Source: Lysobacteraceae bacterium CU05-9 (GTDB lineage Bacteria; Pseudomonadota; Gammaproteobacteria; Xanthomonadales; Xanthomonadaceae). Taken from it: a stretch of DNA of 64,000 nt. The stretch's first letter is position 1. Every line of letters begins with the position of its first letter. The notes under the pieces were generated by a model, which worked only from the letters and a program-made list of their open reading frames with translations, did no database searches and was not told the DNA's origin. Below, in pieces: positions 39,247 to 58,699 of the stretch. The position numbers and the translations under genes were made by a program. The stretch covers positions 248,001-312,000 of the forward strand of contig SWJS01000002.1 of the NCBI GenBank assembly GCA_007556525.1. The letters are read 5' to 3'.

Positions 39247-39555
39247 TTAGTGCTTGCGCGTGTACTCAGCAAACGAAATGTATCCGTCGCCGTTCACGTC
39301 CATCATCTTGAAATGACCCAGCATCGGATGCTGGACCATCTCACGACGAGTCAGCTTACCGTCCTTATTGCGATCGTACTTCGTGAATTCGGCCTTGAAC
39401 TTGGCATTTGCCGAAGCATTTTCGACGGCAGCGGCTGCGGGACGTGGAGTGGTCGCTTGCGCCGCACCGTGGCCGGCGTGATTGTGTGCCTGTGCATTGG
39501 CGCTGAAAACAGCAGCCAAACCGGTGACCAATAGCGCGGACATTGCAAATTTCAT
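39247..39555 (-). CDS. Periplasmic EF-hand protein with His/Met linker, copper-locus associated
   Basis: 102 residues. Signal peptide MKFAMSALLVTGLAAVFSANAQA with an AQA cleavage site, then a His/Ala-rich stretch (HNHAGHG). Two EF-hand loops follow, YDRNKDGKLTRREM (about 60-73) and MDVNGDGYISFAEY (about 85-98). The linker HPMLGHFKMMD supplies two His and three Met, good soft-metal ligands. It is downstream of copB on the same strand, 123 bp away. A homologue with the same HPMxxHFxMMD linker lies at 53958 in the second copper island. A role in copper binding or sensing is inference. Confidence 0.82.
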   Translation of the reverse strand: MKFAMSALLVTGLAAVFSANAQAHNHAGHGAAQATTPRPAAAAVENASANAKFKAEFTKYDRNKDGKLTRREMVQHPMLGHFKMMDVNGDGYISFAEYTRKH

Positions 39556-40689: not shown

Positions 40690-40691
40690 GG

Positions 40692-41693
40692 TCACTCCTC
40701 CACCCGGACTTCGCGGAACATGCCGCTTTCCATGTGATAGAACAGATGGCAGTGATAGGCCCACCGGCCGAGCGCATCGGCTCGAACGCGATAACTGCGT
40801 TTAGTGCCAGGTGGCATATCCACTGTGTGCTTGCGGACCATGAAGTTGCCGTCTGCATCTTCGAGATCGCTCCAGAGACCGTGCAAGTGAATCGGGTGAC
40901 TCATCATCGTGTCGTTGACAAGCACGATTCGCAGACGCTCACCGTAAGTCATTCGCAACGGTTCCGCTTGTGCGAACTTGACCCCATTAAAGGACCAAGC
41001 AAACCTCTCCATGTGTCCCGTCAGGTGCAGCTCGACCTCGCGGCCCGGTTCGCGACCGTCCGGATCCTCGAACAACGACTTCAGCCGGCTGTAAGTCAGC
41101 ACGTCGCGGTCATTCCCGCGCAGGCCAATGCCGGGATCGTCGAGCTTGTGAGTCGGCGTCATCGTCTGCATGTCCACTAACGGGTTGTTGGTTTCCGAGG
41201 CGGGGTGCGAAACCATTCCGGCCATACCGGCCATGGAATGACCCGCATGCTCGGAAGCGTCCGGTGCCACCGGTGCAGGTGTCTCTCCACCACCATGCAT
41301 GGAGTGATCGCCACCGGACATGTCGTGGTCATGACCCATGTCGGCCATGGTCAGCAACGGTTTCGGATCCAGTTCCGGAATCGGTGCCCGCAAACCCTGC
41401 CGCACTGCTAAGGAGCCGGCGACATATCCAGTTCTGCCAGAGTCCTGCGCAAAGACGGTAAATGCGTCTTGACCGGTTGGCTCGACAAGCACGTCAAAGG
41501 TTTCGGCGGCGGCGATCCGGAACTCATCAACGGACACGGGGTGAACGTACTGACCATCAGCGGCAACTACCGTCATTTTCAATCCGGGAATGCGGACATC
41601 GAAATACGTCATGGCGGAGCCGTTGATGAAACGCAGCAGTACTTTTTCGCCGGGAACGAAGGTACCGTTCCAGTTAGCCAATGTCGTACCGCG
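40692..41693 (-). pseudogene. copA: Multicopper oxidase CopA, C-terminal half, truncated by IS30
   Basis: About 333 codons of CopA ending at 40692. They retain LRFINGSAMTYFDVRIPGLKM, a Met/His-rich insert (MGHDHDMSGGDHSMHGG), the MSHPIHLHG type-2/3 copper motif and the terminal WAYHCHLFYHMESGMF type-1/3 site. Homology to the intact CopA at 44178 is continuous back to the codons for GTTL-A-NWNG, one or two codons from base 41693, where the IS30 end begins. The N-terminal ~290 residues, with the Tat signal and first two cupredoxin domains, are absent and do not appear beyond the IS. It cannot make a working oxidase. Confidence 0.9.
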
Positions 41694-42711
41694 GTCTCAA
41701 GATTCAAGTGCGACACAAGGTGATGAGAATTTCGCCAGTTCCTCGGCCATTGCTTCTTCCGGGCTTTTCCAGCCCAGTGTTTTACGTGGCCGTCCATTGA
41801 GCAGGCGTGCAATATCGTTGAGCAGGGTTTGACTGGCTATTGACAGATCCGTCCCCTTTGGCAGGAACTGGCGCAGCAGGCCATTGGTGTTCTCATTGCT
41901 GCCGCGCTGCCAAGGGGCATGCGGGTCGCAGAACCAGATATTCATGTTTATCCGCTTGCTCAAGGCATCAAAACAGGCCAACTCGCTACCGCGGTCATAG
42001 GTCAGGCTCTCACGTAGGAAGGCTGGCAGTTTCTTTATCTGGCGGCTGAAGCCCTCCAGTGCATCTGCTGCTGTACAGCCGTCCATCCGGCAGAGGATGA
42101 CGAAGCGTGTCTTGCGCTCCACCAATACGCCCACGGCCGAGCGGTTGAAGGCGCCCTTGATCAGATCGCCTTCCCAGTGGCCAGGCAGCAGTCGTTGCTC
42201 AATTTCCTCGGGACGGTGCTTGATGCTCAGCTCTTCCGGGACGAAGGTCTTGGCTGCGGCCGACTTGCGGCCTGGGCCGCGCGTCGGCTTGGCTTGCCGC
42301 AGCGCTTCCACCATGGCCTGCTTGAGTCCGCCGCGTGGCTGGGCATAGATGGCCGCGTAAATTGTTTCGTGGCTGACAAGGCCAGGACGGATGGACTCAG
42401 GCATCTGGCGGAGTTTGGCGGCAATCTGCTGCGGTGACCAGCGCCTGTAGACAAGGTGATCGTGGACGTATTGATAAAGCCTGCTTCCGGCCACCAACCG
42501 CTTCATTGGTCTGCAACGGCTGCGGCGTCGGCGATAGCTGAGAGCGGCCTGGCTGGCGTTGTACGCAGCTTGATCGCAGCGCCGGAGCTCTCGCGAAACA
42601 GTGGCTGCCGAACGCCCAAGGCGCAGACCGATCGCTCGCAAACTGCTGCCGTTCTGCCGCTCGATCATGATTACGGCCCGATATGGGGGCGTTGCACTTG
42701 GAAGTTGAGTC
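41694..42711 (-). mobile_element. IS30-family insertion sequence
   Basis: About 1018 bp containing one transposase gene. The ends are imperfect inverted repeats: GTCTCAAGATTCAAGTGCGA at 41694 and, on the opposite strand from 42711, GACTCAACTTCCAAGTGCAA (15 of 20 identical). The transposase stop lies inside the left repeat. No matching target duplication is obvious: the left flank is copA sequence, the right flank is unrelated. G+C changes from about mid-50s on the left to mid-60s on the right of this element. Confidence 0.85.
41697..42668 (-). CDS. IS30-family transposase
   Basis: 323 residues. N-terminal helix-turn-helix (SSLRAIGLRLGRSAATVSREL), then a DDE integrase-like core: first Asp in GHWEGDLIKG (about 170), second in TYDRGSELA (about 227), glutamate in PWQRGSNENTNGLLRQFLP (about 262). 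A short in-frame extension without ATG exists upstream to a TAG inside the right repeat. The ORF is intact, so the element could be active. Confidence 0.93.
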   Translation of the reverse strand: MIERQNGSSLRAIGLRLGRSAATVSRELRRCDQAAYNASQAALSYRRRRSRCRPMKRLVAGSRLYQYVHDHLVYRRWSPQQIAAKLRQMPESIRPGLVSHETIYAAIYAQPRGGLKQAMVEALRQAKPTRGPGRKSAAAKTFVPEELSIKHRPEEIEQRLLPGHWEGDLIKGAFNRSAVGVLVERKTRFVILCRMDGCTAADALEGFSRQIKKLPAFLRESLTYDRGSELACFDALSKRINMNIWFCDPHAPWQRGSNENTNGLLRQFLPKGTDLSIASQTLLNDIARLLNGRPRKTLGWKSPEEAMAEELAKFSSPCVALES

Positions 42712-44177: not shown

Positions 44178-46031
44178 ATGTCATCCGATTCTTTCGGCCG
44201 TGCCGAGGGGCTGTCTGCCCCGTCGCGCCGCCGCTTCGTCCAGGGCCTTGCTGTTGGCGGGGCCGTCGCAACCTTGGGCCTGTGGCCCCGTTCCAGCTGG
44301 GCCGTCAAGGCCGAGGGCCTGCCCAACGTGCTCTCGGGCACCGATTTCGACCTGACCATCGGCGAGACGCCGATGAACTTCACCGGCGCCACGCGCCCTG
44401 CGATCACGGTCAACGGATCCGTTCCGGCGCCGCTGCTGCGCTGGCGCGAGGGCACCACCGTCAACCTGCGGGTCCGCAATGCCCTGCCGCCCGGTTCCAT
44501 CCATGGCGACCAGACATCGATCCACTGGCACGGCATCCTGCTGCCGGCGGACATGGACGGCGTGCCCGGGCTGAGCTTCAACGGCATCCACCGCGGCGAG
44601 ACCTACCATTACCGCTTCAACGTCGTGCAAGGCGGCACCTACTGGTACCACAGCCATTCCGGTTTCCAGGAGCAGGCCGGTCTTTACGGGCCGCTGGTGA
44701 TCGAGCCGCTGGAACCCGAGCCCTTCGCCTATGACCGCGACTACGTGGTCATGCTCAGCGACTGGACCGACCTCGATCCGAACAGCCTGTTCGCCAGACT
44801 CAAGAAGCGGTCGGATTTCGACAACTTCTCCAAGCAGACGGTTGGCGACTTCTTCGATGACGTGAAGCAGCACGGCCTGGCCGCCACGGTCGAAGACCGC
44901 AAGATGTGGGGCCAGATGCGGATGACCCCGACCGACCTGTCGGACGTCAACGGCAACACCTATACCTTCCTCATGAACGGCACGACCTCGCTCGGCAACT
45001 GGACCGGGCTGTTCCGGTCGGGCGAGAAGGTCCGCCTCCGTTTCATCAACGGGTCGGCAATGACGTACTTCGATGTGCGCATCCCGGGCCTGAAGATGAC
45101 GGTGGTCGCGGCCGATGGACAGTACGTCCGCCCGGTCACGGTCGATGAGTTCCGCATCGCCACCGCTGAAACGTTCGACGTCATTGTCGAGCCGACCGGG
45201 CAGGATGCGTTCACCATTTTTGCCCAGGACAGCGGCCGGACCGGCTATATCAGCGGCACGCTGGCCGTCAGGGAAGGGCTGCGGGCACCCGTGCCCAACG
45301 TCGACCCCAAGCCGCTCCTCACCATGGACGATATGGGCCACGGCGGCATGGGCGGCGGCGGTCACGACATGTCCTCGATGTCACACGGTGCGATGGCCGG
45401 CGGTGCGATGGCCGGGATGGACCACAGCGGCCACGACATGTCGTCGATGGCCGGAGGCGCAATGGCCGGCGGAAGCATGGCCGGGATGGATCACGGTGCC
45501 GGCGGGATGCAGGAACACCCTGCGAGCGAAACCGGCAACCCGCTGGTCGACATGCAGACGATGGCGCCCGCGCCCAGGCTGGATGACCCGGGCATCGGCC
45601 TGCGCGACAACGGCCGCCGCGTGCTCACCTACGCCGATCTGCGGAGCACGTTCCGCGATCCCGACGGGCGCGAACCCGGCCGCACGGTCGAGTTGCACCT
45701 GACCGGCCACATGGAGCGCTTCGCCTGGTCCTTTGACGGCGTGAAGTTCGCTGACGCGGAGCCCCTGCGCCTCAACTACGGCGAGCGCATGCGGATCGTG
45801 CTGGTCAACGACACGATGATGTCGCATCCGATCCACCTCCACGGCATGTGGAGCGACCTCGAGGACGAGTCCGGCAACTTCATGGTGCGCAAGCACACTA
45901 TCGACATGCCGCCGGGCACCCGACGCAGTTACCGGGTGCGTGCCGACGCGCTCGGCCGCTGGGCATACCACTGCCACCTGCTTTACCACATGGAAGCCGG
46001 CATGTTCCGCGAAGTGCGGGTGGAGGAATGA
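44178..46031 (+). CDS. copA: Multicopper oxidase CopA (periplasmic copper resistance)
   Basis: 617 residues from ATG 44178 with GGAG 6 bases before. The twin-arginine signal SRRRFVQGLAVGGAVATLG (about 17-35) sends it folded to the periplasm. Cupredoxin copper motifs: HWHGILLP (about 117), WYHSHSGFQEQ (about 158), MSHPIHLHG and WAYHCHLLYHMEAGMF at the C-terminus. A Met/His/Gly-rich segment (about 395-450) of MDHSGHDM-type units probably stores Cu(I). It oxidises Cu(I) to less toxic Cu(II). A TATACT -10-like box is at 44145-44150. Start of copB overlaps its stop (ATGA). Confidence 0.95.
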   Translation: MSSDSFGRAEGLSAPSRRRFVQGLAVGGAVATLGLWPRSSWAVKAEGLPNVLSGTDFDLTIGETPMNFTGATRPAITVNGSVPAPLLRWREGTTVNLRVRNALPPGSIHGDQTSIHWHGILLPADMDGVPGLSFNGIHRGETYHYRFNVVQGGTYWYHSHSGFQEQAGLYGPLVIEPLEPEPFAYDRDYVVMLSDWTDLDPNSLFARLKKRSDFDNFSKQTVGDFFDDVKQHGLAATVEDRKMWGQMRMTPTDLSDVNGNTYTFLMNGTTSLGNWTGLFRSGEKVRLRFINGSAMTYFDVRIPGLKMTVVAADGQYVRPVTVDEFRIATAETFDVIVEPTGQDAFTIFAQDSGRTGYISGTLAVREGLRAPVPNVDPKPLLTMDDMGHGGMGGGGHDMSSMSHGAMAGGAMAGMDHSGHDMSSMAGGAMAGGSMAGMDHGAGGMQEHPASETGNPLVDMQTMAPAPRLDDPGIGLRDNGRRVLTYADLRSTFRDPDGREPGRTVELHLTGHMERFAWSFDGVKFADAEPLRLNYGERMRIVLVNDTMMSHPIHLHGMWSDLEDESGNFMVRKHTIDMPPGTRRSYRVRADALGRWAYHCHLLYHMEAGMFREVRVEE

Positions 46032-47236
46032 GCGCCATGATCGGTTCCAGCCGCCAGCCCCTGGCCATCGGCCTGGCCTCCGCACTGTGGCTTGCCGCTG
46101 GGTTCGCGCCCGCGTGGGCGCAGGAGACAGACCATGCCTCGCACCATCCGGAAGCGAAGCCGGCTCCAGCTGCGACACCATCGTCACCTGAGCCTGTTGA
46201 CCCACACGCCGGCCACCAGCCGACTCCGACAGACACGATGTCCGATGATCACGGGGCCATGGACCACGGCTCCATGAAACATGGGGCCGCGGACACTGCC
46301 GGCAGCGATCACTCCACGATGGATCACTCCACGATGGATCACTCCACGATGGATCACTCCACGATGGATCACTCCACGATGGATCACTCCACGATGGACC
46401 ACTCGGCGATGGACCACTCCACGATGGACCACTCCGAGATGGATCACTCTGGCATGGACCACGCGTCGATGGGCCATCAGCCTGGTGCCAGCCAGGATCT
46501 TCCGGCGACCGCGGAGCCGCACGAGCCCATTCCTGTCATCACCCCGGCCGATCGAGCCGCGGCCTTCCAGGACCTCGACGAGCACGTGATGCACGGCACG
46601 TCGATCAACTCCTACTGGGCGCTTGATCGGCTCGAGGCGTGGGACGCGGATGAGGACGGCACCGGCATAGCCTGGGAAGCGAAAGCCTGGGTCGGCTCCG
46701 ATTTGAACCGGCTCTGGCTCCGCAGCGAAGGCGAGCGTGCGGGCGGATCCACCGAGTCGGCGGATGTGGAAGTCCTGTACGGCCGTGCGATCGCACCATG
46801 GTGGGACGCAGTGGCCGGTGTCCGCCACGATTTCGGTTTTGGCGGTGGCCCGTCGCGCACCTATGCCGCGCTTGGCGTCATTGGTCTTGCCCCGTACAAG
46901 TTCGAAGTCGAAGCCACGGCCTACCTGGGCGAGTCCGGCCAGGTCGGACTCGGGGCGGAAGCCGAATACGAAATGCTGTTCACCAACCGGCTGATCGGCC
47001 AGTGGCTGGTCGAGGGCGAAGCCTGGAGCAAGGACGATCCGGCGGTTGGAATCGGCAGCGGGCTGAGCAAGGTCGAAGCCGGTTTCCGCCTGCGCTACGA
47101 GTTCCATCGGCAGTTCGCTCCCTACGTCGGGGTGGTGTGGGAGCGTGCCTACGGGGGCACGGCGGACCAACGTCGCGCGCAGTCCGGTGACATCGACGAC
47201 ACCCGGATCGTCGCCGGCGTTCGAATCTGGTTCTGA
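46028..47236 (+). CDS. copB: Copper resistance outer-membrane protein CopB
   Basis: 402 residues from ATG 46028, overlapping the copA stop with GGAGG just before. Signal peptide ending AWAQE, a Pro/His-rich stretch, about a dozen MDHST-like repeats (about 97-153) and a C-terminal barrel domain (WWDAVAGVRHDFGFGGG, GLAPYKFEVEATAYLG, ending GVRIWF). It is the outer-membrane partner of CopA. It is longer than the lower-GC copy at 39679 because of the repeat region, and the two differ widely at DNA level. Confidence 0.94.
   Translation: MSAMIGSSRQPLAIGLASALWLAAGFAPAWAQETDHASHHPEAKPAPAATPSSPEPVDPHAGHQPTPTDTMSDDHGAMDHGSMKHGAADTAGSDHSTMDHSTMDHSTMDHSTMDHSTMDHSTMDHSAMDHSTMDHSEMDHSGMDHASMGHQPGASQDLPATAEPHEPIPVITPADRAAAFQDLDEHVMHGTSINSYWALDRLEAWDADEDGTGIAWEAKAWVGSDLNRLWLRSEGERAGGSTESADVEVLYGRAIAPWWDAVAGVRHDFGFGGGPSRTYAALGVIGLAPYKFEVEATAYLGESGQVGLGAEAEYEMLFTNRLIGQWLVEGEAWSKDDPAVGIGSGLSKVEAGFRLRYEFHRQFAPYVGVVWERAYGGTADQRRAQSGDIDDTRIVAGVRIWF
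46306..46470 (+). repeat. 15-bp tandem repeats encoding MDHST units in copB
   Basis: The unit ATGGATCACTCCACG occurs about six times almost identically from 46318 to 46405, with diverged copies to about 46470. Each encodes M-D-H-S-T, diverging to MDHSA, MDHSE, MDHSG and MDHAS. It is the same protein repeat as in the 55% GC copy, but with a different DNA unit, so both arrays expanded independently. Confidence 0.85.
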
Positions 47237-47249
47237 TGGGAGAACATAC

Positions 47250-48020
47250 ATGCAACTGAAGACACGCAAGCGTGTTTGGTTGATCGGGGTTCCGCTGGTT
47301 GTCGTGGCCGGTACGGCGGGCTTCATCTGGGGCGGCGTGTACAACGTCGCCGCCGATGACATGCACACGAAGCCCGTGCAGTTCCTGCTCGAAACCGCAC
47401 GCGAGCGCTCCATCGTGGCACGTCTGGGACAGCTGAACGTGCCGTCGGATTTGGACGATCGCACACGGATCGTCCAGGGCGCGGGCAATTATGCGGCCAT
47501 GTGCGCAGGGTGCCACTTGGCTCCGTCGATGGCCGAAACCGAGTTGAGCCAGGGCCTGTATCCCACGCCGCCGGACCTCAGCAAACACAAGGTCGACGTG
47601 GCCAAAGCGTTCTGGGTGATCAAGCACGGGATCAAGGCTAGCGGCATGCCCGCCTGGGGCAAGAACATGGGGGACGAGTACATCTGGAACATGGCCGCGT
47701 TCCTGCAGATGCTGCCCACGCTCGACGCGACTGCGTACAAGGAACTTGTCGACAGCAGCGAGGGCCATTCGCATGGCGGCGGCGAGACGCAAGGCCACCA
47801 TGACGACGAAAAGGCCGAGGATCACCCTGCCCCATCCGAGCCGGGCAACAACTCCATGCCGCACGCGCACCCGCCGGGCGTGGACGACGATCACCACGGC
47901 CCGACACTCAGCGACACGGAAGTCGGGTTGGTGGACCACCGCCATCCCAACGGCAAGGTGGAGTCGCACCCTGCACCACACACGCCCGTGGCCGGTGACG
48001 GCCATGCGCACACCCATTGA
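47250..48020 (+). CDS. Membrane-anchored cytochrome c with His-rich tail
   Basis: 256 residues from ATG 47250; 13 bases after copB. An N-terminal anchor (WLIGVPLVVVAGTAGFIWGG) precedes one c-type heme motif CAGCH (about 88) with a distal Met in ASGMPAWG (about 133). The C-terminal third (about 170-256) is rich in His, Asp and Pro (SEGHSHGGGETQGHHDDEKA) and could bind metal. Similar cytochromes sit after copB in other xanthomonad copper islands. It may carry electrons from CopA or protect respiration; that role is inference. Confidence 0.87.
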   Translation: MQLKTRKRVWLIGVPLVVVAGTAGFIWGGVYNVAADDMHTKPVQFLLETARERSIVARLGQLNVPSDLDDRTRIVQGAGNYAAMCAGCHLAPSMAETELSQGLYPTPPDLSKHKVDVAKAFWVIKHGIKASGMPAWGKNMGDEYIWNMAAFLQMLPTLDATAYKELVDSSEGHSHGGGETQGHHDDEKAEDHPAPSEPGNNSMPHAHPPGVDDDHHGPTLSDTEVGLVDHRHPNGKVESHPAPHTPVAGDGHAHTH

Positions 48021-48039
48021 TCTCCTTGGAGCCCACGCA

Positions 48040-48549
48040 ATGAACGCAACAGCAATCTCGTTCACCCTCGCACTGGCACTGGCCGTCGTGTCCCCCGCAA
48101 TGGCGCAGGCGACACAGCCGCACGCACATCACCCCGCTGCCGCGGCATCTGCGGACGTCGACGTCCCAGTCACTGCAGAGGCCGCGGTCGCCGTAGCGGA
48201 GCGTTTCAACAGCGCCCTGTCCAGCGGCGATCTGGCCACGGTCGAAGCCCTGCTCGCTGCCGACGTTCTCATCCTCGAGTCCGGGGGCGCCGAACACAGC
48301 CGCGAGGAATACATGGGCCATCACGCAGTCAGCGATGCGGCGTTCCTCAAGGGCGCCCATCGCCAGCTGCTCCGTCAGCGTGCACGAACCGCTGGCGAGT
48401 TCGCGTGGGTCGGAACCGAAAGCGAGCTGCACGCCCAGAAGGACGGCAAGCCACTGACCGTCCAGAGCACCGAAACGATGGTGCTGAAGCAGACCGCCGA
48501 CGGCTGGCGGATCGTCCACATCCACTGGTCCTCGCGGACCAAGCGCTGA
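48040..48549 (+). CDS. SnoaL/DUF4440-like periplasmic protein
   Basis: 169 residues from ATG 48040, 19 bases after the cytochrome gene. Signal peptide MNATAISFTLALALAVVSPAMAQA, a short His-rich stretch (HAHHPAAAA), then a cone-shaped SnoaL/NTF2-type domain (AVAVAERFNSALSSGDLATVEALLAADVLILESGG cut to typical parts, ending GWRIVHIHWSS). Such domains bind small ligands or catalyse simple reactions. No active site can be assigned. It is within the copper operon but has no clear copper site apart from the N-terminal histidines. Confidence 0.85.
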   Translation: MNATAISFTLALALAVVSPAMAQATQPHAHHPAAAASADVDVPVTAEAAVAVAERFNSALSSGDLATVEALLAADVLILESGGAEHSREEYMGHHAVSDAAFLKGAHRQLLRQRARTAGEFAWVGTESELHAQKDGKPLTVQSTETMVLKQTADGWRIVHIHWSSRTKR

Positions 48550-48563
48550 GTCGAGAGTTTGAA

Positions 48564-49088
48564 ATGACTACGCTCAGATTGCACCGCCTGACTTTTGTGG
48601 TCCTTGCCGTGGCTGGTCTGGGTGCTTGCACCCAGGATGCTTCATCCGCGCAACCCACAACCTCGCCCTCCGCACAGGTTGTCGTCCAATCAGCCGACGC
48701 GACTCCAGCAGCCCTGCCACGCATGACCGTCCACAAGACCCCGACCTGCGGGTGCTGCGGTGCCTGGATCGACCACGTGCAGAAGGCGGGCTTCACCGTG
48801 GATGTGCACGACATGGATGACCTGGGTCCGGTCAAGGAACGGCTGGGTGTCCCCTATGCAAAGGGCTCCTGCCACACGGCCGAGATCGGCGGATACGTCA
48901 TCGAAGGCCACGTCCCGGCCGCGGACATCAAGCGTCTCCTCGAAGAAAAGCCGGACGCACGCGGCCTGGTCCTCCCAGGGATGCCGCTTGGTTCTCCCGG
49001 CATGGAGGTTCCGGAGGGGCGACAGCAGCCGTACACGGTCGAGCTGGTCCATCGCGACGGAACCACTGAACCGTTCGCACAGCACTGA
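48564..49088 (+). CDS. DUF411 periplasmic metal-binding lipoprotein
   Basis: 174 residues from ATG 48564. The lipobox AGLGAC places a lipidated cysteine near residue 22. The DUF411 domain follows with the hallmark HKTPTCGCCGAWIDHVQKAG (CxCC, about 60-65), the conserved KGSCHTAEIGGYVIEGHVPA and GMPLGSPGME. DUF411 proteins occur in copper and silver resistance clusters and are thought to bind the metal through these cysteines. Located between the SnoaL-like and the Cys-rich four-helix gene. Confidence 0.9.
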   Translation: MTTLRLHRLTFVVLAVAGLGACTQDASSAQPTTSPSAQVVVQSADATPAALPRMTVHKTPTCGCCGAWIDHVQKAGFTVDVHDMDDLGPVKERLGVPYAKGSCHTAEIGGYVIEGHVPAADIKRLLEEKPDARGLVLPGMPLGSPGMEVPEGRQQPYTVELVHRDGTTEPFAQH

Positions 49089-49158
49089 TCCGTCGCAGCA
49101 ACAGGGGGCGGTGTTGCGGGCGCGCCGATTCTCGCCCGCAAGAAAGAAGGAGAACCAC

Positions 49159-49509
49159 ATGACTCACCATTCCGCCGCACACCGGTCCCAGGCCATGAAC
49201 GAGTGCATCGACAACTGCACGCAGTGTCATGACATCTGCCTGGAGACCATCAACTACTGCCTGACCAAAGGAGGTGCCCACGCGACCCCAGAGCACATTG
49301 CACTACTTGCGACGTGTGCCGATATCTGCGCAACCAGTGCCGACGCGATGCTGCGCGGTGCCAGCGCTCACGACGTGGTTTGCGGTGCCTGCGCGGAGAT
49401 CTGCCGCCAGTGCGCCGATGCATGCGACGCCATGAACGACCCGGAGATGGCGCGCTGCGCCGAAGTTTGTCGCCGTTGCGCGGAAAGCTGCAGCGCCATG
49501 GCGGCTTGA
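49159..49509 (+). CDS. Cys-rich four-helix-bundle copper-binding protein (Csp/DUF326 family)
   Basis: 116 residues from ATG 49159 with AAGGAGA just upstream. No signal peptide, so cytosolic. Sixteen cysteines recur in CxxxC patterns inside helices (NECIDNCTQCHDIC, CADICATSAD, CGACAEICRQCADAC, CAEVCRRCAESC), as in Csp3-type copper storage proteins where the bundle core binds many Cu(I). It would buffer cytosolic copper before export. A stem-loop follows the gene. Confidence 0.9.
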   Translation: MTHHSAAHRSQAMNECIDNCTQCHDICLETINYCLTKGGAHATPEHIALLATCADICATSADAMLRGASAHDVVCGACAEICRQCADACDAMNDPEMARCAEVCRRCAESCSAMAA

Positions 49510-49515
49510 CGCGTC

Positions 49516-49544
49516 GAGGATCCCGCCTGAGCGGCGGGATCCTC
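49516..49544 (+). terminator. Stem-loop after the Cys-rich protein gene
   Basis: A perfect 11-bp stem GAGGATCCCGC / GCGGGATCCTC with a 7-base loop, starting 6 bases past the stop codon. No T-run follows (ATCTCAAAT), so it may be an attenuating or mRNA-protecting hairpin rather than a full terminator. It lies in the 160-bp gap before copC. Confidence 0.5.
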
Positions 49545-49670
49545 ATCTCAAATATCAAAAGCCGACCAACCGTGGTTCGGTGACAGCCCGACACCTAACG
49601 CTTGTCGGATCCAACACAGCACGGCGCCGAACGGGGCTTTGCATCACATTCGCAATGAGGATTTATCCCT

Positions 49671-50054
49671 ATGAAATCATCAAACGTCCTTCGCTCTTTC
49701 GCGCTCGTACTCGCAATCGCGGCAGGGCAGTTTTCGCTGCAGGTCGCGCGCGCCCACGCGGCGTTACAGCAGTCCACACCGGCAGCAAATGCGATCGTGG
49801 CCTCCCCAAGCCAGATCGATCTCGTGTTCAACGAGACGCTGATTCCGCGGGCGTCGCGTCTCAAGTTGCTCATGAAGCACGGGAGTTCCACCATGCCGAT
49901 CGAGAATTTCACGACCAAGATCGTCAACAACGGTAAGACCCTGCGTGCCAAGTTGCCCCAGCCGCTGACTCCGGGCGTCTATACCGTGGAATACCGCGCC
50001 GTTGGAGGCGACAACCACCCCATGACCGGCAATTTCAGTTTCACGGTGCGCTGA
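49671..50054 (+). CDS. copC: Periplasmic copper-binding protein CopC
   Basis: 127 residues. Signal peptide ends VARA before HAALQQSTPAAN, so mature His1 is the classical Cu(II) ligand. The rest is the CopC immunoglobulin-like domain (IVASPSQIDLVFNETL, VYTVEYRAVGGDNHPMTGNFSFTVR) with Asp-His in DNHPM completing the Cu(II) site. There is no Met-rich Cu(I) loop, so it is probably a single-site Cu(II) form. It delivers copper to CopD encoded 10 bases downstream. Confidence 0.93.
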   Translation: MKSSNVLRSFALVLAIAAGQFSLQVARAHAALQQSTPAANAIVASPSQIDLVFNETLIPRASRLKLLMKHGSSTMPIENFTTKIVNNGKTLRAKLPQPLTPGVYTVEYRAVGGDNHPMTGNFSFTVR

Positions 50055-50064
50055 GGAGCAACAA

Positions 50065-50994
50065 ATGTTCGACGTCTCGGCTTATGCACTGAGATTCCTG
50101 GAATACATGGTTCTCATGGTTCTTTTCGGGGTTCCGCTGTTCGGCTGGTATGGTTTGCGGCGACCGGCACTCGCCGACGCCCTGGCCGGATGGCCCTTCA
50201 TGGGCATTCTGTTGGTGAGTGCCGCCGTCGGGCTCGTGCTCACCGGGGCCGATGTCGTATTCAAGACCGCCGGCATCATGGGAATGCCGATTGCCGACGT
50301 TGATCGCGAATCGCTTGGCTGGTATCTGCTCGAAACGTCCGCGGGCCGCGCAGCCATGGCGAGAAGCGTGCTGCTGATCGCCATGGCGTTCTTGCTCGGG
50401 TGGCATCGTCGTCGCGGGACGGTGGAGTCCGCCTTCCCGCTGGCGGCGACGCTGGCGGGCGGCGCACTCGCTTCGCTGGCATGGAACGGCCACGCCGCTG
50501 CTGGCGAGGGCATGGCAGGTGCGGTCCGGCTTGCCGCGGGTCTCGTCCACCTTCTCGCAGCAGGCGGCTGGGTCGCAGCGGTCTTGATGTTCTTGGGGAT
50601 GCTCCTGCAAGGCAAGGAAGCCTCCCGCAACGACCGCCTGCGATCCACGCATGATTTTCTACATGGCTTTTCGACGCTGGGCACGATTTTCGTAGCTGCG
50701 CTCATCGTGTCCGGTATCGCGCACTACGGTGATCTCACCGCTTGGTCCTTGCCGACGCTGGTGCAAAGCACCTACGGAAACCTGTTGCTGGTCAAGCTCG
50801 CTCTATTCGGCGGAATGCTCGGACTGGGAGCGCTGCACCGTTGGGCGCTGGTGCCACGCCTGGGACGGGCGTTGACCAGCGGAAACCCTGCGCAGGAAGT
50901 GCGCGCCCTGCGGCAGAGCGTTACGGCCGAGGCCGCACTGGCCATCTTGATCGTGATTGTTGTTTCAGTGCTTGGGACGCTCAGCCCTGTGTAG
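50065..50994 (+). CDS. copD: Inner-membrane copper transport protein CopD
   Basis: 309 residues from ATG 50065 with AGGAG upstream. About eight membrane helices. Conserved CopD segments: SLAWNGHAAAGEGMAGAVRLAAGLVHLLAAGGWVA (here His residues in WNGHA and VHLLAAG), FLHGFSTLGTIFVAALIVSG and LVKLALFGGMLGLGALHRW. It is thought to move periplasmic copper from CopC across the inner membrane. Last gene of the periplasmic set; the MerR promoter region follows. Confidence 0.92.
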   Translation: MFDVSAYALRFLEYMVLMVLFGVPLFGWYGLRRPALADALAGWPFMGILLVSAAVGLVLTGADVVFKTAGIMGMPIADVDRESLGWYLLETSAGRAAMARSVLLIAMAFLLGWHRRRGTVESAFPLAATLAGGALASLAWNGHAAAGEGMAGAVRLAAGLVHLLAAGGWVAAVLMFLGMLLQGKEASRNDRLRSTHDFLHGFSTLGTIFVAALIVSGIAHYGDLTAWSLPTLVQSTYGNLLLVKLALFGGMLGLGALHRWALVPRLGRALTSGNPAQEVRALRQSVTAEAALAILIVIVVSVLGTLSPV

Positions 50995-51065
50995 GGGTTG
51001 CAATCCATACGGCAGCTCGAGGCTGGCACCGAAGGCAACGGGCATCAGCGCGGGGGCCGCACCAC

Positions 51066-51104
51066 TTGACTCTGGACCGTGGTCAAGGGCACACTCGGAA
51101 TCTG
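51066..51104 (+). promoter_or_regulatory. MerR-type operator/promoter upstream of the regulator and ATPase
   Basis: TTGACT (51066-51071) serves as a -35 element and TTGAC-N11-GTCAA (51066-51086) is a dyad lying in the spacer. The likely -10 is displaced to about 19-20 bp downstream, the over-long spacer typical of MerR-regulated promoters. It is 38 bp or more before the MerR ATG. Confidence 0.5.
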
Positions 51105-51123
51105 GTCTAGCGGAGCGCCCACC

Positions 51124-51522
51124 ATGCAGATAGGTCAACTCGCCAAGCGGACACACGTGCCCATCGACACGATCCGCTACTACGAGAGCCACGGCATCCT
51201 GCCCGCCCCTGCCCGTCTCAATTCGGGATATCGATCCTACGGCGACGCCGACGTGGCGCGCCTGCATTTCGTGCGTCGCGCCAAGGCGCTCGGCTTCACG
51301 CTGCGCGAGATCAGCGAGCTGCTGCAGCTCTCCGGGCGGTCGGGTGAGGACATGGCGGGGGTGCGTGGGTCGGCGGCGGCACGCCTCGCCGACGTCGAGC
51401 GCAAGCTGGACGAACTCACCCGCATCCGCGATGGGTTGCGCCAACTCGTCACCGCCTGCCCTGGGCATGGCGGTGTCGAGAACTGCCCGATCCTGGGCGC
51501 CTTGTTGAAGGAAGACGCATGA
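51124..51522 (+). CDS. CueR/HmrR-like MerR-family metal regulator
   Basis: 132 residues from ATG 51124 ([12 protein letters not shown]). N-terminal winged helix ([13 protein letters not shown]), long dimer helix and metal loop C112-PGHGGVEN-C121. An ungapped alignment with E. coli CueR places Met77 where CueR has Ser77 and the divalent-metal sensor ZntR has Cys. The absence of that cysteine suggests a monovalent (Cu/Ag/Au) sensor, with an 8-residue rather than 7-residue loop. The stop overlaps the ATPase start (ATGA), so it governs its own operon. Confidence 0.9.
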
Positions 51523-53891
51523 ACACGCACGAGTCCCACCAGCAGGCCCACGGACATGGCGGCAACACTGCCGCGCACGCGCCTGAAGGCGGCCAGCAAA
51601 CCGCGCCGCCCGGAATGGTGACGGATCCGGTCTGCGGCATGAACGTCGATCCGAAGTCCTCGCCCCACCACGCCGAACATGCCGGCACGACATACCACTT
51701 CTGCTCGGGGGGCTGCCGCACGAAGTTCGTCGCCGCCCCCGGCAAGTACCTCGCTCCGACTTCGGCCGAGCCTGCGCCTGCGGTTCCGGGCGCCATGTAC
51801 ATCTGCCCGATGCATCCCGAGATCCGCCAGGATCATCCCGGCACCTGCCCGATCTGCGGCATGGCACTGGAGCCGGAGATGCCCGGGCTTGACGACGAAG
51901 AGAACCCGGAGCTCGTCGACTTCAGCCGCCGCTTCTGGTGGACGCTGCCGCTGACGCTGGTCGTGCTGGTACTGGCCATGGTCGGTCACCAGTTCGCCTG
52001 GCTGCCGACCGATGTGCGGACCTGGCTAGAGCTGGTGCTCACCGCGCCAGTGGTGCTCTGGGCCGGCTGGCCGTTCTTCGTTCGCTGCGTCCAGTCGATC
52101 CGCAACCGCAGCCCGAACATGTGGACGCTGATCGGGATCGGCGTAGCGGCTGCCTTCGGCTACAGCGTCGTCGCGACCGTGGCCCCCGGCCTGTTCCCGG
52201 ACTCGTTCCGCGAGCACAGCCGCGTGGGCGTGTACTTCGAAGCCGCCGCGGTGATCGTCTCGCTCACCCTGCTCGGGCAGTTGCTGGAGCTGCGGGCCCG
52301 CTCCAGGACGTCTGCCGCGATCAAGTCGCTGCTGGGCCTCGCACCGAAGACCGCTCGCCGCCTGCGCGACGACGGCACCGAGGAGAACATCGAGCTGAGC
52401 CACGTCCATGTCGGCGACCGCCTGCGTGTGCGCCCCGGCGAGAAGGTCCCCGTCGACGGCAAGGTGCTGGAAGGCCGATCCAACATCGACGAGTCGATGC
52501 TGACCGGCGAACCGATCCCGGTCGAGAAGGCGGCCGGCGACAGGGTCATCGGCGCCACCATGAACGCCACGGGCAGCCTGGTGATCCAGGCCCAGAAGGT
52601 CGGTTCGGAAACCGTGCTGTCGCAAATCGTGCAACTGGTGGCGCAGGCGCAGCGCTCGCGTGCGCCGATGCAGCGCATGGCCGACAAGGTCGCCTTCTGG
52701 TTCGTGCTCGCGGTGCTGGCGATCGCGGTCGCCACGCTGCTGGTCTGGGGATTCTTCGGCCCGGAGCCGTCGTGGACCTACGCCGTGCTCAACGCGGTGT
52801 CGGTGCTGATCATCGCCTGCCCCTGCGCGCTGGGCCTGGCGACGCCAATGTCGATCATGGTGGCCACCGGCCGCGCCGCGCAGGGCGGCGTGCTGTTCCG
52901 CGATGCCGAGGCGATCGAGAACTTCCGCCGCATCGACACGCTCATCGTCGACAAGACCGGCACGCTCACCGAAGGCAGGCCCGCGTTCCGGGAGACGATT
53001 GCGGCGAATGGTTTTACGGAGGACGAGGTGCTGCGCCTGGCTGCCAGCCTGGACCAGGGCAGCGAACACCCGCTGGCCGATGCCATCGTCGCCGAGGCGC
53101 GTCGTCGCGGCCTGGCGTTGGAGACGCCGCAGGACTTCGAATCGTCCACCGGCATCGGCGTGCGCGGCACGGTAGGGGCGCTCACGCTGGCGATCGGCAA
53201 CACACAGCTGATGCGGGAACAGGGCGTCGACCCAGCCTCGCTGCAGGCGCAGGCCGAGACGCTGCGTCACGAAGGCGCGAGCGTCATGTACCTCGCGGTC
53301 GACGGGGCCCTGGCCGGACTCATCGCCGTGGCCGACCCGATCAAGGCCTCCTCGCGCGAAGCCATCCGGGCCCTGCAGGCTGACGGCCTGCGCATCGTGA
53401 TGGCCACCGGCGACGGCGTGGCCACCGCAAATGCCGTCGCGCGCGAACTGGGCATCGACGAGGTGCACGGCGAGGTGCGGCCGAAGGACAAGATCGACCT
53501 CGTGCAGCGGCTGCAGGCCGAAGGCCACAGGGTCGCGATGGCCGGCGACGGCATCAACGACGCCCCGGCACTGGCCGGCGCCGACATCGGCATCGCCATG
53601 GGCACCGGCACGGACGTCGCCATGTCGAGCGCGCAGGTGACCTTGGTCAAGGGCGACCTGCGCGGCATCGTGCGCGCGCGCAAGCTGTCCAGTGCCACCG
53701 TGGCGAACATGAAGCAGAACCTGACCTTCGCATTCCTCTACAACGCACTCGGCGTCCCGATCGCCGCGGGCGTGCTGTATCCGGTGTTTGGCCTGCTGCT
53801 CAGCCCGATGGTGGCGGCGCTGGCAATGAGCCTCAGTTCAGTATCGGTGGTAGCTAATGCTCTTCGACTGGGCAAGACCCGGTTCGAATAA
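51519..53891 (+). CDS. copA: Copper-exporting P1B-type ATPase with YHS and CPMHP domains
   Basis: 790 residues. A His-rich lead ([10 protein letters not shown]) and YHS domain ([22 protein letters not shown], about 35-72) are followed by a heavy-metal-binding CPMHPEI/CPICGM motif (about 95-118). Eight membrane helices, metal motif CPC at 434-436, phosphorylation motif DKTGT (D478), GDGIND near the end and the actuator TGE loop are present. It exports Cu(I) from cytosol to periplasm. Stop codon is followed by the EF-hand gene after 66 bases. Confidence 0.95.
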
Positions 53892-53957
53892 CTGCCAGGC
53901 GGGTGTGCCGGGAACCGCGCCCATGGCATCACAATCACGTTCCCTGGAGCTCATCAA

Positions 53958-54227
53958 ATGAAAATTGCAGCCATGGCGTCAGCGTTGCTCCTGTCACTGG
54001 CCGTCGTTACCCCGGTGGCAGCCGCCGAGCCGCCGGCAAAAGACCGCGCCGCACACGAATCTCACAAGCAGGCCACCGGAGCGCAGGATTTCGCCGCTCT
54101 GGACAAGAACAAAGACGGCTCGCTGTCGAAGGAAGAGATGGCGAAGCATCCGATGGCCGCACACTTCGGCATGATGGATACAGACAAGAATGGCAAGCTG
54201 AGCAAGAGCGAATACGAAAGCATGTAG
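53958..54227 (+). CDS. Periplasmic EF-hand protein with His/Met linker
   Basis: 89 residues from ATG 53958. Signal peptide MKIAAMASALLLSLAVVTPVAAAE, then two EF-hands, LDKNKDGSLSKEEM (about 49-62) and MDTDKNGKLSKSEY (about 74-87), joined by HPMAAHFGMMD. It matches the protein at 39247-39555 in layout and in the linker HPMxxHFxMMD. It is the last gene of the MerR-ATPase unit. A copper-binding role is inferred from position and ligand content. Confidence 0.82.
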   Translation: MKIAAMASALLLSLAVVTPVAAAEPPAKDRAAHESHKQATGAQDFAALDKNKDGSLSKEEMAKHPMAAHFGMMDTDKNGKLSKSEYESM

Positions 54228-54439
54228 GAGCTATGTCGCCCGGCTGCGGCCATTCGACCTAGCGTGCTGCGACCAGCGCGGGGGCGAACCCGCCGCCAGG
54301 CGTGCGGAAGTTGGTGGTCTGCCTCTGGTCCAAACGCGCCGAAAACCTCAGCGGCATTCCTCGGGAGGCGTAACAGCGGATGTCGATCTTCAGCTGCCAA
54401 GCTTTCTGCCCATTCTGCGCTCGCCCGGCGGTACCAGTT

Positions 54440-54956
54440 GCTGCGCGATGTGGGGATTGATGGCGGCATGGGGGTTTGCGGAACCGTGGCCGGTCACACG
54501 CTTGCGCTGGGCAATACCGCACTCATGGACGACCTGGGCGCCAACCCGGCGCGCACGTCGACGTGGCCGAACGGATGCGTCGCGAGGGCACCAGCGCCAT
54601 GTTCCTCGCCGTTGACGGTCGACTGGCGGGCCTGATCGCTGTCGCCGACCCGATCAAGACGTCGGCCGCGACCGCCATCAATGAGCTGCACGCCGCCGGG
54701 CTGCGCATCATCATGGCCACCGGCGACGGGCTCACCACCGCCCAGGCCCTGGCCACCGACCTAGGCCTGGACGAGGTGCATGGTGGCCGCAGCCGACGTC
54801 GGGAGCGCCATGGGCACAGGCACCGACGTCGCGATGTCCAGTGCCCAGATCACCCTGGTCAAGGGCGACCTGCGGGGCATCCTGCGCGCCCGGAAGATCT
54901 CCCAGGCCACCGTGGCCAACATGAAGCAGAACCTCACCTTCGCGTCTACGTGGTAA
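54440..54956 (+). pseudogene. Remnant of a copper P-type ATPase, frameshifted and deleted
   Basis: Three frames in turn match the P1B ATPase C-terminal half: GMGVCGTVAGHTLALGNTALM (54440-54545); after a shift VAERMRREGTSAMFLAVDG to GLDEVHG (about 54560-54786, with [20 protein letters not shown]); and after a further shift and loss of about 40 residues, including [26 protein letters not shown] to [13 protein letters not shown] (54787-54945), stopping TAA. The final membrane helices are gone. It cannot be functional. Confidence 0.85.
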
Positions 54957-55325: not shown

Positions 55326-55630
55326 CTGTCCCCCGCTCTCCCGCCACGTCCGGGCCCCGACGTTGGGTCTTCTGGACCTTCCTCGCGCTGGCCGTGTTCT
55401 ATCTGGGCGTCGAGCATCGCGCCCACCTCGCCGGAACGCTCCGCTGGTTGCCGCTGGCCATCCTGCTGTTGTGCCCGCTCATGCATGTGTTCATGCACAA
55501 GGGACATGGCGGTCATGGAGGCCACGGGCAAGACAGAAATGCCGATGCCCCCACCGGTGGTGGTGATGACGGCCGTCGCAAGCAGGCACAGACCGACGAG
55601 ACATCCGACACCTCGACCGGAGGGCACTGA
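55322..55630 (+). CDS. DUF2933-like small membrane protein
   Basis: 102 residues from ATG 55322, overlapping the previous stop. One or two membrane helices (WVFWTFLALAVFYLGVEHRA; LPLAILLLCPLMHVFM), then the motif HVFMHKGHGGHGGHGQ with several histidines and a hydrophilic tail. Short HVFMHxGHGGHG proteins of the DUF2933 type lie in metal-resistance clusters and probably bind metal at the membrane. Its stop is 1 base before the next ATG. Confidence 0.75.
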   Translation: MTVPRSPATSGPRRWVFWTFLALAVFYLGVEHRAHLAGTLRWLPLAILLLCPLMHVFMHKGHGGHGGHGQDRNADAPTGGGDDGRRKQAQTDETSDTSTGGH

Positions 55631-55631
55631 C

Positions 55632-56297
55632 ATGCATGCACCTGACTCTGGCTACGGACTCTGGCTCCTGGCCGCCATCAACGCCGCGTTCTTCATCTTC
55701 TTCGCCTGGAGCTTCTACAAGCCGTTGACCCGGTGGGACTGGCGGGGGTTCGGGATGTTCTCCGCCTTCGTCGTGGCCCTGTTCGCGGAAATGTATGGCT
55801 TCCCGCTGACGCTGTACGTCCTGGGCGGCTGGCTCAGCGCCAACTATCCGCAGGTGGACTGGCTCAGCCATGACGCGGGCCATCTTCTGGAGATGTGGTT
55901 CGGCTGGCGCGCCAACCCGCATTTCGGCCCATTCCACATCGCGAGTTTCGTCCTGATCGGCGGCGGCTTCTGGCTGCTGTCGGCCGCCTGGCCCGTGCTG
56001 TATCGGGCACAGCGTGAGGGCCGGCTCGCCCGGGAGGGCGTGTATGCGCGCATGCGCCACCCGCAGTACGTCGCCTTCGTGCTCGTGCTGACCGGTTTCC
56101 TGCTGCAGTGGCCCACGCTGCTCACGCTCGCCAGCTATCCAGTGCTCGTGTGGGCCTATGCCCGCCTGGCACGCCGTGAGGAAAAAGACTGCTTGAGCCG
56201 CTTCGGCGACGACTACGTCCGCTACATGCAGGAAGTGCCGGCCTTCATCCCCCGACGCCGGCGCGGCCCCGCCCCATCCCAAGGAGAAGCCCGATGA
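55632..56297 (+). CDS. Isoprenylcysteine carboxyl methyltransferase-like membrane protein
   Basis: 221 residues from ATG 55632. Five or six membrane helices. The C-terminal half has the ICMT/PEMT signature [22 protein letters not shown] (about 135-156) and [23 protein letters not shown], the SAM-binding region of this family. The natural substrate in bacteria is not known for this branch, which often accompanies DUF2933 and P1B-ATPase genes. The stop overlaps the ATPase start (ATGATG). Confidence 0.85.
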
Positions 56298-58699
56298 TGC
56301 AGGTCCACGAACCCACGGTGCGCACGCGCACCTGGCCCATCGGCGACATGGTGAGCACCGGCTGCGCGCGCACGCTGGAGAAGGCCGTGGCCGCGCTGCC
56401 TGGAGTCAACGCCACCAGCGCGAACTTCGCTACCGCGACCCTGCAGGTGTCCTACGACCCGGCCCGCCTGTCGGCGGGCGCGGTCGCCACCGCGATCCGC
56501 GACTGCGGCTTCCAATGCGAGGCATCGGCGGACGATGCGGTGCACGATGCAGCCCAGGCAACAGGGGCGCACGTCCATCACGCGCATGCCGGGCATAGAC
56601 AGGGTACGGCCGCGGAGCACCCCGCCGAAACCCACGCCGACCACGGCGATGACGCCAAGGATGCCGGGGGCCACGACGCCCATGCGGGCATGAACCACGG
56701 CAGCGATCTGCACGCCGCGGCGCGCGACATGGGCCGCCGCTTCCTGGTCGCCCTCGCCTTCGCGATCCCGGTGTTCGTGTGGTCGCCCATGGGCGGCCTG
56801 ATGGAGCCGCCGCCGGTGCCGTTCGGACTGCGCGAGAACGTCTGGTTGTTCCTGCTGGCGACCGGCGCCGTGCTGTATCCGGGCTGGCCATTCTTCAGTG
56901 CGGCGATCCGCTCCCTGCGGCGCGGCGTACTCGACATGGCGGTATTGGTGCTCCTCAGCGTGGGCACGGGTTACGGTTTCAGCATCGCGTCGACGTTCTT
57001 CTTCGACGGGCCGAACTTCTACGAGGCCTCAGCCGTCTTGCTGACCTTCGTCCTGCTTGGCCACTGGCTCGAGATGCGGGCTCGCGCCGGCGCCTCGGAC
57101 GCCATGAAAGCGCTGCTGAAGCTGTCCCCACCCCGCGCGATCGTCCGGCGCGAGGGGCAGGAAATCGAGATCCCCACTGCGGAAGTGCTGGTCGGCGACA
57201 TCGTAGTGGTGCGGCCCGGGGCCAAGATTCCGGTCGACGGCACCGTCACCGAAGGCAGCTCCCAGGTCGACGAATCCATGCTGACCGGCGAGTCGATGCC
57301 GGTGCGCAAGGATCCCGGAGAGTCCGTCGTCGGCGGATCGATCAACAAGAGCGGCGCATTTGCCTACACCGCCACCAGGATCGGTAGCGACACGGCACTG
57401 GCGCAGATCATCAAGCTGGTCCAGACCGCGCAGAACTCCAAGGCGCCCGCGCAGTTGCTCGCCGACCGCGCCTCGCAGTGGCTGGTGCTGGCCGCGATCG
57501 TGATCGGGCTGCTGACGTTCGCGGTCTGGTTCTGGTGGCTGGGACAGCCGCTCATGTTCGCGCTTACGCTGACGATCACCGTCTTCGTCATCGCCTGCCC
57601 CGATGCGCTCGGCCTGGCCACGCCGATGGCGATCATGATCGGCACGGGCCTGGGCGCACGACACGGCATCCTGTTCAAGCATGCCGAATCGATCGAGAAG
57701 AGCGCACGCCTGGACGTGGTGATCTTCGACAAGACCGGCACCCTGACGGTCGGCGCCCCAGAGGTGGTCGACATGGCGGTCGCGCCGGGCTGGACGCAGG
57801 AGCGGCTGCTGGCCACGGCTGCCGCGGTCGAGGCGCATTCCGAGCACCCGTTGGCACAGGCCATCCTGAAGCGCGCCGGTCCGGTAGCCGAGCGCGCTAC
57901 AAACTTCACCAACATCGACGGCCAGGGCGCCACCGGCGTGGTCGATGGGGTGCAGGTGCTGCTGGGCAACCAGATACTGATGGTCGAGCACGGCATCGAC
58001 CTCTCCGCACTGGAAGTGGAGGCCGCCCGCCTCACCGGCGCCGGCCGCACGGTGATCTATGCCGGGGTGGATGGCCAGTTCGCGGGCTTCTTCGCGATTG
58101 CCGACGCGATCCGCGAGACCTCGCGCGCCGCTATCGACGAATTGCACCGTCGCAGCATCAAGGTGGCGATGATCACCGGCGACAACCGCCCCACGGCCGA
58201 GCGCGTGGCGCAGGACCTGGGAATCGACATCGTGCTGGCCGACGTGCTGCCTGGCGGCAAGGCCGACGAAGTCATCAAGCTGCAGTCACAGGGCCTCAAG
58301 GTCGGCATGGTGGGCGACGGCATCAACGACGCACCGGCGCTGACCCAGGCGGATGTGGGCTTCGCAATTGGCGCCGGCACCGACGTCGCAATCGAAAGCG
58401 CGGACGTCGTGCTCATGCACAGCGACCCCTACGACGTCGTTCGCGCGACCACCATCGCCCACGCCACCCTGCGCAAGATGCACCAGAACCTGGGCTGGGC
58501 CGTGGGTTACAACGTCCTGGCCTTCCCGCTTGCAGCCGGGGTGCTTTATCCCTTCGTGCTGTCGCCCGAAATCGCCGCGCTCTCCATGTCGGGAAGTTCA
58601 GTGATCGTCGCCGTCAACGCCTTGCTGCTGCGCCGCGTGCGGCTGGTCCCACGTACCGCAGGCGACCCCACGCCTTCCTCTCTCGAAACCGCGGCGTAG
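56294..58699 (+). CDS. P1B-like cation ATPase with CPD metal motif and degenerate HMA domain
   Basis: 801 residues from ATG 56294, AAGGAG 8 bases before. The N-terminal 70 residues fold as an HMA domain but have GDMVSTGC instead of GMxCxxC, one cysteine lost. A His-rich linker ([22 protein letters not shown], about 95-140) follows. The core is intact: TGE actuator, DKTGT with D479, [12 protein letters not shown]. The membrane motif is C435-P436-D437, not CPC. The transported ion is therefore uncertain, with copper less certain than usual. It heads the operon with the metallo-hydrolase at 58722, 22 bases downstream. Confidence 0.88.

Follow-up and report, generated by a model that had tools for sequence, protein, structure and literature searches.

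Small EF-hand proteins with a conserved HxxM motif as candidate accessory components of cop copper-resistance clusters in Lysobacteraceae

Lanmodulin, a bacterial EF-hand protein with short linkers, is marked by a Pro at loop position 2, and PcoE of the pco system has a role like that of SilE. For SilE itself, the available part of PMC5008109 describes binding of Ag+ via HxxM/MxxH motifs and suggests that a lone helical motif is perhaps unable to bind by itself. The S100 proteins are EF-hand proteins for which binding of Cu2+ and Zn2+ is described as well (available part of PMC5072561); these are animal proteins, and we claim no common ancestry between them and the copper-locus family considered here. 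The cop cluster in which this family resides is set out in the accessible portions of PMC10667641 and PMC2643945, and proposed roles of the named cop genes are given in the accessible portion of PMC11651105, while the term 'EF-hand' is absent from the main texts of all three papers. Smlt2445 and Smlt2443 are named beside the cop cluster, without description in the available part of PMC2643945, and either of them could be the EF-hand gene. Likewise, the 'hypothetical protein' WP_005413412.1, which follows copF in the Xanthomonas copLABMGCDF cluster, is the same gene in the same slot. The EF-hand gene is an unnamed part of the known cop system, annotated as a hypothetical protein or included in an ATPase. 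In line with the initial annotation, which suggested that the family may not be described as such, literature searches for EF-hand with copper terms, made in a collection with few subscription journals, returned nothing or papers that appeared unrelated from their title and the start of their abstract.

The window analyzed here, a stretch of 64,000 nucleotides from Lysobacteraceae bacterium CU05-9, contains two members of this family, referred to as proteins A and B, and their genes and neighbors are located as follows.

53958 to 54227, plus strand: protein A gene, 89 amino acids, two EF-hands and a signal-peptide-like start
53958 to 54026, plus strand: signal-peptide-like N-terminus of protein A, approximately residues 1 to 23, ending VAAA, judged by eye
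54027 to 54089, plus strand: segment of protein A preceding EF-hand 1, with His33 and His36
54102 to 54137, plus strand: EF-hand loop 1 of protein A, D49 to E60, canonical, from Pfam
54147 to 54149, plus strand: H64 of protein A, a possible third ligand, predicted
54162 to 54173, plus strand: HxxM of protein A (H69 and M72) on the helix leading into loop 2, proposed metal ligands
54177 to 54212, plus strand: EF-hand loop 2 of protein A, D74 to E85, canonical, from Pfam
51519 to 53891, plus strand: copF, P1B ATPase for copper translocation, containing YHS and heavy-metal-binding domains
51079 to 51522, plus strand: MerR-type regulator gene, 5' of copF
44991 to 50994, plus strand: copA, copB, cytochrome c (copM), NTF2-like, DUF411 (copG), four-helix copper protein, copC and copD, from tblastn, with Pfam for copC and copD
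39247 to 39555, minus strand: protein B gene, 102 amino acids, the second family member, immediately 3' of copB
39304 to 39315, minus strand: HxxM of protein B (H81 and M84), from sequence comparison and model
39328 to 39330, minus strand: H76 of protein B
39679 to 40764, minus strand: copB, 5' of protein B, with MDHSKMDH repeats (Pfam CopB E=9.5e-71)
40692 to 41681, minus strand: 3' part of copA, multicopper oxidase, 329 amino acids, adjoining a transposase gene

Both open reading frames were found to be real, at the places and with the two EF-hands and linkers (HPMAAHFGMMD and HPMLGHFKMMD in the pair) that the initial annotation had reported, and with signal-peptide-like starts that were judged by eye from the sequence. 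PF13202 matched two stretches in each protein (45.9 bits for A and 43.4 bits for B, with a cut-off of 25.9), and the loops, which begin with DKNKDG and DTDKNG in A and with DRNKDG and DVNGDG in B, have acidic residues or Asn at positions 1, 3 and 5, Gly at position 6 and Glu at position 12. Across the EF-hand pair 21 of 43 residues are identical between A and B (E=1e-16 in a single comparison). The segment of protein A with His33 and His36 is retained in all eight sequences of the family alignment; protein B has fewer than two His among the 27 residues that precede its EF-hand 1, and an HNHAGH farther upstream. Assignment to lanmodulin (NF053806; 37.9 bits for A and 22.1 bits for B, against a cut-off of 135) or to the XopAW effector (NF041410; 30.1 and 18.9 bits against 120) was rejected.

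The gene of protein A, whose ATG lies 66 bp after the stop of copF, follows CopC, CopD, the MerR-type regulator and the copper P-type ATPase, while that of protein B follows CopB and the truncated multicopper oxidase. The annotation had also placed the two genes in separate copper loci of unlike base composition, which agrees with a GC content of approximately 0.53-0.58 up to 42 kb and of 0.63-0.70 beyond; given this jump near 42 kb, the DNA around one copy differs in make-up from that around the other. At the B locus a copAB operon has probably been broken, and its copA remnant adjoins a transposase gene (41697-42668) that is IS30-family-like by eye. At the A locus the start of copA is probably upstream of 44991, as a DNA match to Xanthomonas copA begins at 44220. 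The segment from 51038 to 54755 is 95.65% identical to DNA of Lysobacter spongiicola (L009), which points to a recent transfer of the copper island, and the A gene differs from its L. spongiicola copy, which is 98% identical, by three changes, one synonymous and two nonsynonymous. Fragments of another P1B ATPase gene lie just 3' of A (54509-54944), and L. spongiicola has comparable fragments 3' of its own EF-hand gene (L009 6489-7002), suggesting that this decay predates the transfer. Farther downstream, a gene for an isoprenylcysteine-methyltransferase-like membrane protein (55485-56297) precedes a second P1B-type ATPase gene (56294-58699), which looks complete and whose product has a His-rich N-terminal part. 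A scan of 53600-54800 revealed no promoter and one minus-strand terminator-like site within the gene, with an expected number of 0.9.

The host genome (2.35 Mb in 15 contigs) contains four family members, namely A, B and one copy each on contigs C10 and C3. The latter two are longer, with open reading frames of 163 and 165 amino acids, a third EF-hand-like loop and MDHSKMDH segments, and are located between a copF copy on the 5' side and DUF305 on the 3' side, contig C3 beginning within copF. Over 43 codons they differ by five synonymous and six nonsynonymous changes (dS 0.23, dN 0.06). Longer members with a third EF-hand-like loop were observed at L018 7549-8040 and L017 664-1161 and in L066 and L071, and the Met/His-rich stretches between the loops of these four resemble those of CopB.

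A family profile made from eight members was run on 247 Lysobacteraceae (= Xanthomonadaceae) genomes and returned 45 members at or above 62.5 bits, in 36 genomes and 16 genera, with the next score at 58.5. Neighborhoods of approximately 8 kb per side (shorter at contig ends) were retrieved for 39 members and for 41 lower-scoring EF-hand genes, the latter serving as controls and taken by rank from the profile rows between 58.5 and about 45 bits with seven rows skipped (G429 twice, G439:C1:1162528, G352, G235:C1:3428112, G435:C7 and G324); the addition of A, B, L017, L018 and L019 brought the family to 44 in the main test. Copper linkage, defined as at least one tblastn match to a set of copper-cluster proteins within the stretch, was seen for all 44 members but for none of the 41 controls. 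The 45th member (G136:C33, on the same contig as L010, Lysobacter daejeonensis) is located 3' of copF in a copA-copB-copG-copF cluster, so that linkage to copper genes, the check proposed in the initial annotation, extends to 45 of 45 members. Four members found later (L184, L186, L187 and L188) are likewise situated within cop clusters. Strong cop neighbors, i.e. CopB, the oxidase CopA or a copF match of at least 70% identity, accompany 40 of the 44, while the other four have weaker copper matches alone: a 45% ATPase directly upstream in L062, a 44% ATPase and a 53% CusA in L079, a 39% ATPase with CusA/CusB in L089, and DUF411 in L092. A P1B ATPase (copF) lies directly upstream on the same strand within 720 bp in 32 of the 44, and in five the immediate upstream neighbor, no more than 300 bp away, is copB; DUF305 is directly downstream in 19.

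This linkage results in part from shared descent, since the profile was made from copper-locus members and many of the loci are near copies of each other; loci with near-identical copies in several genomes do not represent independent events. CopB (PF05275) is present in 192 of the 247 genomes, and among the matches listed a family member lies no farther than 10 kb from 29 of 150 CopB loci, while 121 are without one, indicating that only some cop clusters have the EF-hand gene as an accessory. None of 70 generic EF-hand genes was within 10 kb of a listed CopB; these 70 rows include the seven skipped controls, and the copies of the CU05-9 genome were left out of this comparison. In a tree of 76 short rows, family and controls require two label changes, reduced to one in 11% of the bootstrap trees. 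The members in the copB slot (L064, L075, L081, L091 and L092) form a group with support of 99/96, although the L092 stretch has no CopB match; protein B falls outside this group, and its placement is unsure.

The residues that distinguish the family are found just ahead of the second loop. Positions were counted backward from Asp 1 of loop 2 in 37 distinct cores (from the 44 family members, with G136:C33 left out) and in 38 distinct control cores (from 41). His(-5) and Met(-2) are present in all 37 family cores, and His(-10) in 35, with Asp in the other two. The initial annotation had viewed the whole linker HPMxxHFxMMD, with its two His and three Met, as conserved. Two His and one Met of this ligand set were retained across the family, whereas the remaining positions vary: Pro(-9) occurs in 24 of 37 cores, Met(-8) in 16 (Leu in 18) and Met(-1) in nine. 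Met(-8) and Met(-1) are exchanged mainly for Leu or Val, as expected for positions in the core of an EF-hand helix. Phe(-4) is found in 30 of 37 family cores and in all 38 controls, and His(-5) in six of 38 controls. The pattern H[FAL]xMxD ahead of loop 2 is seen in 37 of 37 family cores and 0 of 38 controls; it was chosen after the family had been seen, and the count also allowed Y, I, V and M at its second place. Ahead of EF-hand 1 the family averages 3.4 His over 27 residues, compared to 0.4 in the controls; L090, like protein B, has fewer than two there and has no upstream His cluster in the stretch shown. As judged from these alignments, the family signature is the HxxM on the predicted helix entering loop 2, mostly in combination with His(-10) and with a His-rich N-terminus. 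Generic periplasmic EF-hand proteins (PF13202, PF00036, PF13499) have two canonical loops, a short linker and the fold in common with this family, but the controls differ from it in this signature, in their few His and in their gene neighbors. The spacing from loop start to loop start is 25-26 residues.

HPMxxHFxMMD was accordingly rejected as a family mark. The Xanthomonas copy WP_005413412.1 has HKLAPHFGMLD in its place, in which the HxxM and both His are retained while Pro and two Met are lost. Generic EF-hands can contain HP and HF as well, such as HPRLAEHFDRLD in L093. At the DNA level the slightly relaxed pattern HPMxxHFxxMD was found, more often than expected by chance, at six places in three of 299 genomes of the order, four of them in this genome, with no match to its backward control among those listed for the 299 genomes, and the exact A and B linker patterns occur at two loci only in the named genomes. 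A pattern made independently of the profile, HxxMxDx[DN]x[DN]G, occurred at 19 places in 16 genomes among 369 Gammaproteobacteria, compared to ten for the backward pattern. EF-hand pairs account for six of these 19 places, each one a family member beside copF or copB, in three Lysobacteraceae genomes, and the other 13 gave no EF-hand pair on translation; with just four Lysobacteraceae genomes in this sample, it tests specificity more than spread.

AlphaFold models of A and B, built from four sequences, were confident in the EF-hand pair, with block pLDDT values of 84-90 for A and 88-92 for B (74 for the last two residues of B), and poor before the pair. In the A model a helix of residues 65-73 bears H69 and M72, with H64 just ahead, and similarly in the B model H81 and M84 are located on a helix of residues 77-85. 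Being three residues apart, H69 and M72 would be close together on the modelled helix. A Foldseek search with the model had no match at E<=0.001, and the 50 matches listed were mainly calmodulin-like and other EF-hand entries, including lanmodulin.

The family was seen only in Lysobacteraceae in the genomes sampled. In a phylum sample of 398 genomes all rows of at least 82 bits came from four Lysobacteraceae genomes and the remainder scored at most 54.8 bits; similarly, in an order sample of 398 genomes rows of at least 68.9 bits came from 25 genomes, all Lysobacteraceae, and others scored at most 57 bits. Of 20 non-family rows fetched, one had a copper-set match nearby, a 29% ATPase match (L161). 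Among 72,556 plasmids 20 matched protein A, all from Xanthomonas, and 18 matched protein B. Four Xanthomonas plasmids were inspected, each with the order copF, EF-hand gene and DUF305, and three of the four records label the EF-hand gene a hypothetical protein. In NZ_CP137540.1 (L023 9451-12183) copF continues into the EF-hand gene as a single open reading frame of about 910 residues that includes the EF-hand protein's own signal-peptide-like segment, which may reflect either a genuine fusion or the loss of a stop; in the plasmid listing for CP137537.1 the ATPase name also covers the EF-hand match. Plasmids L022, L023 and L024 carry the histidine-degradation genes hutG, hutH, hutU and hutC between the cop cluster and a CopL-family gene.

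A and B are best viewed as small, apparently exported EF-hand proteins that accompany extended cop copper-resistance clusters as accessory components, and from sequence and gene context a copper-binding function appears likely. On balance we slightly favor an EF-hand scaffold with a SilE-like His/Met metal site, which would act as a periplasmic copper buffer or chaperone. In such a protein, calcium, which is plentiful in the periplasm, would occupy both loops and keep the EF-hand pair folded, while His(-5) and Met(-2), together with His(-10) and the N-terminal His and Met, would be the ligands that bind Cu(I) or Cu(II). Copper might thereby be soaked up or relayed between CopF, responsible for cytoplasmic export, and the side of the oxidase CopA, CopB and DUF305, a job that would be comparable to the one performed by SilE for the sil system. 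SilE resembles the EF-hand proteins in being small and periplasmic, in its HxxM-kind His/Met motifs and in its location in a metal resistance cluster. However, silver-free SilE is disordered, and its two motifs are each repeated twice, as described in the available part of PMC5008109, while protein A has a single HxxM and is modelled as a folded EF-hand pair, and thus lacks both the several repeated HxxM/MxxH motifs and the metal-free disorder of a SilE-type sponge. In some other members additional HxxM precede the EF-hands. Arguing against a copper site, one HxxM supplies two ligands and, going by the SilE study, might not bind alone, His(-10) is replaced by Asp in two of the 37 cores, and B and L090 are poor in His just ahead of EF-hand 1. 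The confinement of the gene to some cop clusters, the share of common descent in the linkage and the four loci with weaker copper matches also count against this reading.

The conserved His and Met could instead contact a protein partner rather than a metal, with the EF-hand protein binding calcium alone and serving as a calcium-dependent docking or assembly partner of CopF, CopB or the DUF305 protein. We regard this as possible though unlikely: the frequent adjacency of an ATPase of the copF type (32 of 44) and of DUF305 (19 of 44) and the joint open reading frame in one Xanthomonas plasmid record speak for it, but family members are also found directly 3' of copB in five of 44, the conserved His and Met are residues that typically bind copper, and most N-termini are rich in His. 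A calcium-gated chaperone, in which Ca2+ loading would order the helix between the loops and a His2Met copper site could form only then, appears rather unlikely. If it existed, the hand-over of copper in the periplasm would depend on calcium, and it would represent an S100-like dual metal use that arose separately. We know of no earlier bacterial EF-hand protein that works on copper.

An ordinary periplasmic EF-hand protein without a copper role might also hitchhike in a mobile copper cluster, as the 121 listed CopB loci without a family member and the common occurrence of generic two-EF-hand proteins in the Lysobacteraceae genomes searched would allow. We consider this improbable, since linkage holds for all 45 members across 36 genomes and 16 genera and in two different slots, and since the residue signature is absent from the generic EF-hands tested and the invariant HxxM would be left unexplained. 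Even less probable, and in our estimation a very distant prospect, is a binder of lanthanides or another metal related to lanmodulin. The best PDB sequence match is lanmodulin (8fns; the model fits with an rmsd of 1.5 over 54 columns at 33% identity), the short loop spacing is similar, and there is a weak match to the NCBIfam lanmodulin model. However, the scores of A and B fall far under the cut-off of that model, Pro is absent from position 2 of their loops, and the gene neighbors, unlike those of lanmodulin, are copper genes.

Cop clusters provide resistance to copper sprays in Xanthomonas and its relatives. If copper binding by the EF-hand proteins holds true, a nameless component of this system would gain a function, and copper tolerance might then also depend on calcium. 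The HxxM ahead of loop 2 offers a simple mark for the annotation of the family as well as two residues to mutate.
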